Shown here: piece after piece, positions 2,998 through 5,515 of the stretch | How positions within the stretch are numbered: position 1 is the first letter of the stretch | How the letters are laid out: every line of letters begins with the position of its first letter | Assembly (NCBI GenBank): GCA_017652965.1 | Contig: JAGBZZ010000234.1 | Coordinates: forward strand, 1-5,870 | DNA: 5,870 nucleotides | Reading direction: 5' to 3' | Source of the DNA: Clostridia bacterium | GTDB lineage: Bacteria; Bacillota_A; Clostridia; Oscillospirales; CAG-272 | Notes under the pieces: generated by a model | Seen by the model: only the letters and a program-made list of their open reading frames with translations | Database searches by the model: none | What the model was told of the DNA's origin: nothing | Translations under genes and position numbers: made by a program

Positions 2998-3008
2998 ATA
3001 GCATGAAG

Positions 3009-3051
3009 GAAAGCACCCACCGGCGGCCACGGCCGCGGCGGGTGCTTTTTT
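3009..3051 (+). terminator. Rho-independent terminator after the sensor kinase gene
   Basis: AAGCACCC (3011-3018) pairs with GGGTGCTT (3040-3047), and the stem continues inward through GC-rich CCGGCGGCC / GGCCGCGG segments with a small mismatch. A run of six T (3046-3051) overlaps the 3' arm and follows the stem. It starts 12 bases after the kinase stop codon. It separates the htrA-regulator-kinase unit from the transporter operon. Confidence 0.9.
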
Positions 3052-3132
3052 GCTCCTTCTTGCCTTTTTGCCATAGCCAAAGAGCCGCCCTTCTTCATGG
3101 CGTGAAAAAGAAAGAATATTTTGGAAAAGGGC
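3052..3132. other. AT-richer intergenic spacer without a recognised gene
   Basis: This stretch between the terminator and the -35 box of the transporter promoter has no credible reading frame with a ribosome binding site. It is pyrimidine-rich on its left side and A-rich on its right side (GAAAAAGAAAGAATATTTTGG). The A/T-rich part directly upstream of the -35 box could act as an UP element for RNA polymerase, but this is inference only. Confidence 0.4.
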
Positions 3133-3161
3133 TTGACAACACCGCTTTAGTGTGATAAAAT
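3133..3161 (+). promoter_or_regulatory. strong sigma-A-type promoter of the amino acid transporter operon
   Basis: The -35 box TTGACA (3133-3138) is a perfect consensus match. A 17-base spacer leads to the -10 box TAAAAT (3156-3161), one mismatch from TATAAT. TGA directly precedes the -10 box, giving an extended TGn element. Transcription would start near G3168. The promoter stands just after the terminator of the preceding unit and drives the binding protein, permease and ATPase. A TGATAAA direct repeat (3153-3159 and 3161-3167) overlaps the -10 region. Confidence 0.88.
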
Positions 3162-3223: not shown

Positions 3224-4053
3224 ATGAAAAAGATCCTTTCTCTCCTCCTCGCTGTTGCGATGCTTGCCGGTTGCATGCTCGTGATGGCCTCCTGCGGCCA
3301 GCCCACCCTGAAGGTTGGCTACACCGTGTACGCCCCCATGAACTTCTACGACAATGACGGTGACGTCCTTGACGGGGATGACGGCAGCGGCGATTTCGTC
3401 GGCTTTGACACCGAGCTTGCCCTTCTTGTTGCCGAGAAGCTTGGTATGAAGGTCCAGTTCGTTGAGATCGACTGGAACAACAAGTACTCCGAGCTGAACT
3501 CGGGCGCTATCGACTGCATCTGGAACGGCTTCACCTCGAACAGCAAGGATGCCGACGGTATCGAGCGTTCCGAGAAGGTTGACTTCTCCTATGCTTACCT
3601 GGATAACGCCCAGTGCGTCGTTGTGAAGGCCGCCGACCTTGCCGCATACACCTCTGTCGAGTCTCTTGCCGGTAAGAAGGGTGCTGCCGAGGGTGGTAGT
3701 GCCGGTGAGACCTATGCGCTGTCGGTTACCGACTCCGACAAGGTCGTTCCTGCCGACGTGCAGACCGATACCTTTACCGAGCTTCTGGCCGGTGCCGTTG
3801 ATTCGGCGTTGTTGACCGTCTGCTTGCCGAGAATATCGTCGGTAAGGGTGACTATGCCGCCCTCGCGATCGTCGAAGCTATCGAGATCGAGAAGGAGGTC
3901 TACTCCATCGGCTGCAAGAAGGGTGGCGATCTTGACGACAAGATCAACAATGCCCTTGTCGAGCTTCTGAACGAGGGTAAGATCGAAGAACTTGCTGCCA
4001 AGTACAACGTCCGCGTGACCGATACCCTGATGGCTAAGAAGACTGCCGAATAA
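3224..4053 (+). pseudogene. amino acid ABC transporter substrate-binding lipoprotein, broken by a single-base frameshift
   Basis: This is a family 3 extracellular solute-binding protein, which captures polar amino acids outside the membrane and delivers them to the permease. The signal peptide MKKILSLLLAVAMLAGC has a canonical LAGC lipobox (Cys17); MASC (Cys24) is a second candidate. Lobe I begins LKVGYTVYAPMNFY, then GFDTELALLVAEKLG and AIDCIWNGFT. R115 in ERSEKVDFS is the usual Arg that binds the ligand carboxylate. After residue 195 (GAVDSA) the frame is lost: translation runs through 53 unrelated Arg/Ser-rich residues to a stop at 3970. From 3811 the next frame encodes VDRLLAENIV, EVYSIGCKKGGDLDDKIN, ALVELLNEGKIEELAAKYNV and ends at 4053, which is the expected family C-terminus. 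Restoring one base, probably G in GCG GTT GTT GAC, gives 276 residues and the consensus DxAVVD. Coding quality after the break is unspoiled, so a sequencing error or very recent mutation is likely. The exact amino acid bound cannot be read from the sequence. Confidence 0.9.
3806..3814 (+). other. frameshift site in the substrate-binding protein gene
   Basis: Observed GCGTTGTTG fits the family only if read as GCG, (G)TT, GTT, G.., with one base missing between 3808 and 3810. Reading phase changes from codon starts at 3209+3n to codon starts at 3811+3n. No slippery heptamer of the XXXYYYZ type is present, so programmed -1 frameshifting is not supported. Confidence 0.85.
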
Positions 4054-4060
4054 TTAAAGC

Positions 4061-4708
4061 ATGTCTGTTTTTTGGGAAGTTACACTTGAACTCCTCAAAG
4101 GATTTTGGACAACCTGTTCCATTTTTGGGCTAACACTCGTGTTAGCCCTTCCTTTGGGTTTGCTGATCTCTTTCGGGACGATGTCGCGCCTTGCGCCCAT
4201 CAAGATCACCTTTAAAACCGTCGTTTGGATCATCCGCGGTGTGCCGCTGATGCTTCAGATCTTCGTTGTCTATTACGTCCCGGGATTTGTGTTCGGGACG
4301 CCGATCGCAAGCCGTTTTATCGCCGCGATCATTGCCTTTGTTATCAACTACGCCTGCTATTTCTCCGAGATCTACCGCGCAGGTATCGAGGCGGTCCCCT
4401 TTGGCCAGACCGAGGCAGGGCGTGTGCTCGGTATGACCAAGGGTGAGATCTTCTTCCGTGTGACCCTTCTGCAGGTCATCAAGCGCATCATTCCCCCGAT
4501 GGGGAACGAGATCATTACCCTTGTCAAGGATACGGCGCTTGCCCGCGTTATTATGGTCGTGGAGATCATCAAGGTTGCCGAGAAGTTTACCTCCCGCGCG
4601 ATGATCTGGCCGCTCTTTTACACGGCGATCTTCTATTTGCTGTTCGTAGGAGGGCTGACTCTCCTCTTTGGCAAGGCAGAGAAAAAACTTTCGTACTTTA
4701 AGGTGTAA
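4061..4708 (+). CDS. amino acid ABC transporter permease (HisM/GlnP family)
   Basis: A 215-residue inner-membrane subunit of a polar amino acid importer, a normal length for the family. Hydrophobic segments are visible at about 18-38, 56-76, 85-102 and 184-204, with a further one near 160-170. The HisMQ signature RGVPLMLQIF (residues 59-68) is present. The cytoplasmic EAA loop that docks on the ATPase is at about 118-146, centred on EAGRVLGM and ending IKRIIPP. It starts seven bases after the restored stop of the binding-protein gene and has no clear Shine-Dalgarno (only TTAAAGC precedes the ATG), so it probably depends on translational coupling. In the sequence as given, ribosomes on the binding-protein gene would stop at 3970, 91 bases short of this start. 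The first about 90 bases are more A/T-rich than the rest and contain a perfect inverted repeat. Probably functions as a homodimer, since only one permease gene is present. Confidence 0.95.
   Translation: MSVFWEVTLELLKGFWTTCSIFGLTLVLALPLGLLISFGTMSRLAPIKITFKTVVWIIRGVPLMLQIFVVYYVPGFVFGTPIASRFIAAIIAFVINYACYFSEIYRAGIEAVPFGQTEAGRVLGMTKGEIFFRVTLLQVIKRIIPPMGNEIITLVKDTALARVIMVVEIIKVAEKFTSRAMIWPLFYTAIFYLLFVGGLTLLFGKAEKKLSYFKV
4127..4148 (+). repeat. perfect 10-bp inverted repeat inside the permease gene
   Basis: GGGCTAACAC (4127-4136) and GTGTTAGCCC (4139-4148) are exact reverse complements with only two bases between them. In RNA this gives a 9-bp stem closed by a CTCG tetraloop. Five T precede it and only two T follow, so it is not a terminator on the + strand. 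It encodes part of the first membrane helix (GLTLVLAL). Confidence 0.8.
4700..4705 (+). promoter_or_regulatory. ribosome binding site of the ATPase gene, inside the permease 3' end
   Basis: AAGGTG lies six bases before the ATG at 4712 and is made of the last permease codons (Lys-Val). The permease stop is only three bases before the ATPase start. This layout supports tight co-translation of the two subunits. Confidence 0.75.
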
Positions 4709-4711
4709 GCT

Positions 4712-5515
4712 ATGGCGTTTTTAGAGGTAAAGAATATCCATAAATCCTTCGGAGATCTGAAGGTCCTCCGTGGGATCAACTTCTCAATGGAGAAGGGCGA
4801 GGTCGTGGTTATCATCGGCTCGTCGGGTGGCGGTAAGACCACCTTTCTCCGTTGCCTGAACTTTCTGGAAACACCGAACACGGGCACGATGACCGTCGGC
4901 GGCAGGAAGATCTTCGATGCCAAAGAGATCTACACCGATGCCGAGATCCGCGAAATGCGCCTGCGCTTCGGTCTTGTCTTCCAGTCCTTCAACCTTTTCC
5001 CGCAGTACACCGCGCGTGACAATATCGCCATGCCGCTGGCCCTCCGCCTTTATGAGCGTGCCGCCACCGAGGGTCTTTCCCGTCGTGAGCGCGCCGCCCT
5101 CAAAAAGACCACCCGTGCCGAGGCGCTCTCGCGTGCCGAAGCACTCCTTGCCGAGGTGGGGCTTTCGGAGAAGGTGGATTACTATCCCCACCAGCTGTCG
5201 GGCGGCCAGTGCCAGCGCGTGGCTATCGCCCGCGCCCTTGCGCTTTCCCCCGATATCCTCTGCTTTGACGAGCCGACCTCGGCCCTCGACCCCGAGCTGA
5301 CGGGGGAGGTGCTTCGCGTCATTCGCTCACTGAAGGATAGTGACCGCACCATGATCATCGTCACCCATGAGATGGAGTTTGCCCGCGGCGTTGCCGACCG
5401 TGTGATCTTCATTGCCGACGGTGTGATCGTGGAGGAGGGCACGCCCGAGGAGCTGTTCGAAAATCCGAAAAGCGAGGCCCTGCGCACCTTCTTGCACAAG
5501 AGTAACGAATTCTGA
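4712..5515 (+). CDS. amino acid ABC transporter ATP-binding protein (GlnQ/HisP family)
   Basis: The cytoplasmic ATPase that powers the importer, 267 residues against about 240 for E. coli GlnQ. Motifs in order: aromatic A-loop region KSFGDLKVL (the aromatic is F13), Walker A GSSGGGKTT (36-44, K42), Q-loop VFQSFNLFP (Q91), ABC signature LSGGQ (162-166), Walker B ILCFDEP (D186, catalytic E187), D-loop SALD and H-switch VTHE (H219). All catalytic residues are intact. Differences from the common sequence are GSSGGGKTT for GPSGSGKST, and Cys167 after LSGGQ where Gln is usual. The helical domain between the Q-loop and the signature carries about 18 extra residues (roughly 114-133, charged, Arg/Lys/Glu-rich); a smaller extension of about five residues lies before the Q-loop. 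Such longer forms probably occur in clostridial relatives, so this is likely lineage-specific rather than aberrant. It is the last gene of the operon. Exact substrate is not deducible. Confidence 0.96.
   Translation: MAFLEVKNIHKSFGDLKVLRGINFSMEKGEVVVIIGSSGGGKTTFLRCLNFLETPNTGTMTVGGRKIFDAKEIYTDAEIREMRLRFGLVFQSFNLFPQYTARDNIAMPLALRLYERAATEGLSRRERAALKKTTRAEALSRAEALLAEVGLSEKVDYYPHQLSGGQCQRVAIARALALSPDILCFDEPTSALDPELTGEVLRVIRSLKDSDRTMIIVTHEMEFARGVADRVIFIADGVIVEEGTPEELFENPKSEALRTFLHKSNEF

Follow-up and report, generated by a model that had tools for sequence, protein, structure and literature searches.

Gene Organization of the Locus

The window, by which the whole analysed stretch of 5,870 nucleotides from a Clostridia bacterium is meant here, makes up one complete contig and carries a series of genes that all lie on the forward strand, as do the parts of the binding-protein gene and the promoter-like site described below. 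In order, these genes encode a trypsin-like/PDZ protease clipped by the contig start (3-797), a response regulator (834-1529), a histidine kinase (1516-2997), a family 3 solute-binding lipoprotein (PF00497; start at 3224), an amino-acid ABC transporter permease (4061-4708; PF00528, E = 8.4e-15), an amino-acid ABC transporter ATPase (4712-5515; PF00005, E = 1.5e-33), and the start of a methyltransferase (5560 onward; PF02390), which is presumably TrmB-like. The permease and the ATPase are intact, and no frame break was found in any of the four complete neighbours of the binding-protein gene (regulator, kinase, permease, and ATPase), whose reading frames are all open. The permease is 100% identical to an entry listed for five contigs (P0241), and the kinase shares 491 of 493 residues with P0121. 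The best NCBIfam match for the ATPase was TcyN, with a score under the cut-off of that model. Across the aligned span (1-264 vs 1-247), it exceeds this model by about 17 residues, pointing to a possible insertion within the ATPase.

The succession of binding protein, permease, and ATPase is the order expected of a polar amino-acid ABC importer operon, and a permease and an ATPase follow downstream within 4 kb, in this order, in 75 of the 80 genome loci compared. The locus is an ordinary polar-amino-acid ABC importer operon of this Clostridia bacterium, composed of a binding lipoprotein, a permease, and an ATPase. A promoter-like site with a near-consensus sigma-70 sequence, detected by consensus scan only, is located 5' of the binding-protein gene (3133-3161); it has 11 of 12 consensus matches, a 17-base spacer, and a TG ahead of the second hexamer. 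The scan returned 2 sites in the region, compared with 0.7 in shuffled sequences. Past the stop codon of the kinase and ahead of the importer genes, a strong GC-rich hairpin is followed by a T run (3003-3056; -32.3 kcal/mol, z = -4.7), which is likely an intrinsic terminator, although the consensus scan did not pick up this candidate.

The Two Parts of the Binding-Protein Gene

In the original prediction, the frame starting at 3224 was assigned to the family 3 binding proteins, and this assignment was confirmed by the domain search. The in-frame 5' part (3224-3799; residues 1-192), which comprises a signal with a lipobox cysteine and most of the binding domain, matched PF00497 with an E-value of 4.2e-18 and 65.8 bits, above the gathering cut-off of 26.4. 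A lipoprotein signal was recognized by LPAM_1 (E = 3.7e-4; 20.8-22.4 bits against a cut-off of 20), and the lipobox residue Cys24 is invariant in 48 aligned proteins, including the near-twin P0002 described below. After residue 192, the frame runs into an out-of-frame tail of 56 residues (3800-3970) and stops at the TGA at 3968-3970. As had been stated beforehand, this tail bears no resemblance to the family and is rich in serine and arginine (13 Ser and 10 Arg). A function of its own was considered for the tail and rejected: nothing in the PDB matched it up to an E-value of 1, and its sole Pfam match, Codanin-1_C (E = 0.018), was under the cut-off of that family.

The rest of the gene is found in a displaced frame (3802-4053), which encodes residues 194-276, including the strand 194-198, Asp198, and the C-terminal elements, and closes with the TAA at 4051-4053. 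The presence of the family C-terminus in this frame had been correctly recognized, but its opening had been placed at 3811; the frame is in fact open from 3802, and a TGA of the same phase stands immediately before it at 3799-3801. By itself, the displaced part reached 13 bits against PF00497, under the cut-off of 26.4. A complete two-lobe PF00497 domain in a single frame is thus absent from the window, whereas it is present in P0002. In the displaced frame, no start codon precedes the GTG at 4015 and the ATG at 4030, which agrees with the claim that no in-frame ATG lies near the break and makes separate translation of a useful 3' part unlikely.

Codon scores were calculated with the pooled usage of the four neighbouring genes as the reference, and these genes were scored against their own pooled table. 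The tail had a per-codon score of -0.62, while the 3' frame had a score of +0.51 over the shared stretch and 0.45 overall, comparable to the scores of the four neighbouring genes (0.35-0.47). Both parts of the gene retain coding quality, as had been noted for the two sides of the break.

The Near-Twin and the Position of the Break

The closest counterpart of the broken gene product is P0002, a whole binding protein of 276 amino acids that is listed for a single 5784-base ENA contig and matches PF00497 over residues 30-261 (81.1 bits; cut-off 26.4). At the protein level, the window is identical to P0002 at 192 of 192 positions over residues 1-192, and the displaced frame is identical to it at 82 of 83 positions over residues 194-276. 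The only mismatch in the latter stretch is residue 195, which is Val in P0002 and Gly in the window. Both protein differences are therefore confined to residues 193-195, and the remainder of the 276 residues is identical. If the second difference were placed uniformly, its chance of falling within two residues of the break would be 4/275, a figure obtained post hoc. The frame-broken protein (P0001) is represented by the window only, that is, by one contig among the matches listed.

Conservation around the break was assessed in the best 120 of 4123 relatives found, the window being included as P0001. Both gene parts are present in 116 of these 120 proteins, and the 3' part is missing in four of them (P0001, P0066, P0067, and P0073), so that the residue counts refer to 116 relatives. 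In this set, 104 proteins have Asp at residue 193 and 12 have Q, E, K, H, Y, or N there. At residue 194, Phe occurs in 114 proteins and Cys in the remaining 2; residue 195 is always one of I, V, A, and L and never Gly. Val at residue 196 and Asp at residue 198 are present in all 116. In the displaced frame of the window, codon 195 (3805-3807) encodes Gly, and Asp198 is encoded at 3814-3816. The original prediction had restored the sequence DSAVVDRLL as the expected motif, which does not fit these counts, since Ser was found at residue 194 in none of the 116 relatives.

Compared with the coding sequence of the relatives, the gene is one base short (modulo 3). In the gap scan, a single gap was slid along the window and the mismatches were counted against the degenerate codons of the protein. 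Against P0002, 1 mismatch was obtained with the gap at 3800-3802 and 4-5 with the gap at 3808-3810. For the Asp193 forms, which are the commoner ones, a gap at 3801-3804 gave 1 mismatch and one at 3808-3810 gave 2-4. The break had previously been put between 3808 and 3810, and this position was rejected on the comparison with the twin and, less strongly, on that with the Asp193 forms. Placement on the DNA level was based on the 26 of the 80 loci that fit the motif (54 did not); among these 26 distant relatives, the best gap, with ties counted, followed 3801 in 18 cases and 3807 in 16, an ambiguous result. Most economically, the break would be placed at 3800-3804 and be accompanied by a changed codon at 3805-3807.

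Occurrence of the Break Among Relatives

Two findings had been named in advance as refuting the proposal, a break shared with relatives and a 3' frame without similarity to family 3 binding proteins, and neither was obtained: none of the relatives examined carries the break, and the homology of the 3' frame is clear. The genome loci closest to the binding protein belong to metagenome-assembled Clostridia from the gut of deer, goat, sheep, and yak, with a best identity of 60%, which makes an uncultured gut-type Clostridia bacterium the probable source of the window. In 56 of the 80 loci, the two parts were detected near each other, and all 56 have them in one frame that is free of stops. The other 24 loci, in which the 3' part was unmatched close downstream, were re-examined. 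In 23 of them, the frame stays open for at least 74 codons beyond the matched 5' part, and in one of the 23 (L078) it is open to the end of the locus. In L050, a distant relative with 44% identity, a stop occurs 16 codons after the matched 5' part. At about 2385-2900 of this locus, two stops come shortly past the Asp motif of lobe 2 and a permease-like frame follows close behind; neither the C-terminal part nor a displaced 3' part was seen in the three forward frames. L050 may encode a natural short binding protein or may carry a deletion. The frame break is thus not conserved among the relatives, but genes that end early are seen in the wider family.

Several other records deserve mention. 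The proteins P0066, P0067, and P0073, which come from contigs of 715-1225 bases, end or diverge earlier and at other points than the window, and abbreviated records of this binding-protein gene are accordingly recurrent. P0004 is 92% identical to the window over the 5' part and 54% over the 3' part, and could have arisen either by natural recombination or as a chimera of the assembly. P0014 and P0016, with 274 residues each, differ at 16 positions that all fall between residues 67 and 99, a cluster that may reflect mosaicism or misassembly. An exact-pattern scan of viral contigs with a 38-base stretch spanning the break gave 0 matches.

Predicted Structure and the Product as Written

The predicted model of P0002 has a mean pLDDT of 90.7 and a pTM of 0.77, and it matches solved amino-acid binding proteins, including 4ohn (E = 7.1e-20), 4zv1, 3hv1, and 2iee. 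The TM-scores by query length are moderate (0.44-0.64 among the 50 matches listed), perhaps because the lobes open differently. For the structure alignment, 48 of the 116 relatives were used. Mapped on this model, the part lost through the break comprises the strand 194-198, in which the invariant Asp198 lies, and everything that follows this strand. Asp198 of lobe 2, which we take to be the residue that contacts the ligand amino group in this family, is out of frame in the window. A product truncated in this way would be unlikely to fold properly or to bind its ligand.

Origin of the Frame Break

A sequencing or assembly error is the most likely origin of the break, and we put its probability at about two thirds, against about one third for a genuine mutation or variant of very recent date. 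The fault would be a local one, at about 3800-3807, that left the sequence one base short and changed one adjoining codon; it would have arisen in sequencing or assembly, through low coverage or mixed strains, and the living bacterium probably still makes a whole, ligand-binding protein. The break in the record, the wholeness of the near-twin, and the lack of the break in the relatives examined are observations, whereas the technical nature of the break and the source organism are inferred. A local error is favoured by the clustering of the two differences at residues 193-195. It is also supported by the whole twin P0002, by the listing of the broken form for a single contig, by the four complete neighbours being unbroken, and by the 3' frame having kept the codon bias of the contig. 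On the other hand, the contig looks accurate elsewhere, as seen from the permease that is identical to P0241 and the kinase with its 491 of 493 residues, which argues against a generally error-prone assembly. An error or a very recent loss had been proposed at the outset; the whole twin and the relatives read in one frame support this, and the observation was right in substance, but the break position and the motif attached to the proposal did not hold, and the second change had not been foreseen.

It has been documented that assembly error at low coverage gives rise to false pseudogenes among public bacterial genomes, and a role of coverage and of the choice of assembler has been documented as well (PMC11017572). 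In the same study, reads of low quality had a stronger effect on internal stops than on frameshifts, and the causal inference for frameshifts named coverage alone, with a low confidence of 37% (PMC11017572). The study is not known to have dealt with metagenome contigs, and all three points count against the error reading.

The tentative second choice, distinctly below even odds, is that the gene genuinely lost its function through a very recent mutation, or that the break is a variant carried by a minority of the population. Such a change would leave a truncated lipoprotein of 248 residues that is unable to close on its ligand, and an importer that stands idle or is served by a different binding protein. 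In favour of this explanation, mutations of the frameshift type are common in nature, and the sequence as given encodes a broken protein, from which a strand, an invariant aspartate, and every later element have been lost. The differences of the kinase from P0121 indicate that strain variation exists, and the related gene of L050, which ends early with a permease right behind it, indicates that real loss does happen. However, the break occurs on one contig only among the matches listed and is absent from the relatives, no decay was seen in the permease or the ATPase, and a simple one-base slip leaves the changed neighbouring codon 195 unexplained. It is improbable that the strain lost its own binding lipoprotein, with the permease and ATPase intact, and that the neighbouring codon was changed in the same complex mutational event, the strain having been sampled very soon afterwards.

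Far less credible is a programmed or compensated frameshift, in which the whole protein would be made via ribosomal frameshifting or the 3' part would be translated separately. The two parts adjoin and both retain coding quality, as noted above, but the twin and all of the two-part loci are read in one frame, the break is not conserved, the 3' frame has no start codon before 4015, and no Rfam family reached its gathering score in the window. A conserved or programmed frameshift was rejected on the single frame of the relatives and the Rfam result. The least probable explanation, a chimeric contig in which two strains or paralogues were joined at the break, could draw on mosaic-looking relatives among the matches listed, such as P0004, but the same protein P0002 is matched on both sides (192/192 and 82/83) and none of the 10-base words around the break is found a second time in the window. 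A template switch from a local repeat was also rejected, as the 10-base words at the break recur 0 times on either strand while random stretches average 1.1.

Significance and Comparison With Known Systems

A frame-broken amino-acid binding-protein gene is an ordinary finding, and it matters for little other than clean annotation. An annotator would enter this record as a pseudogene or as two fragments though a whole copy circulates, and a loss of amino-acid uptake might be wrongly inferred from it. If the break is real, an uncultured gut bacterium would carry an ordinary allele that has lost its function.

Two known systems can be compared with the locus. As in the PF00497 family, the domain and the fold are found in the twin P0002, and a permease and an ATPase come after the binding gene in the window; unlike in that family, the copy in the window is out of frame past residue 192, and the end of the domain is missing as written. 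The case also resembles the spurious pseudogenes described for public bacterial genomes (PMC11017572), in that one assembly is frame-broken while a near-identical sequence is whole. Those pseudogenes were shown to be spurious by reassembly from the reads of public genomes, whereas the present case concerns a metagenome contig and its assembled sequence alone.
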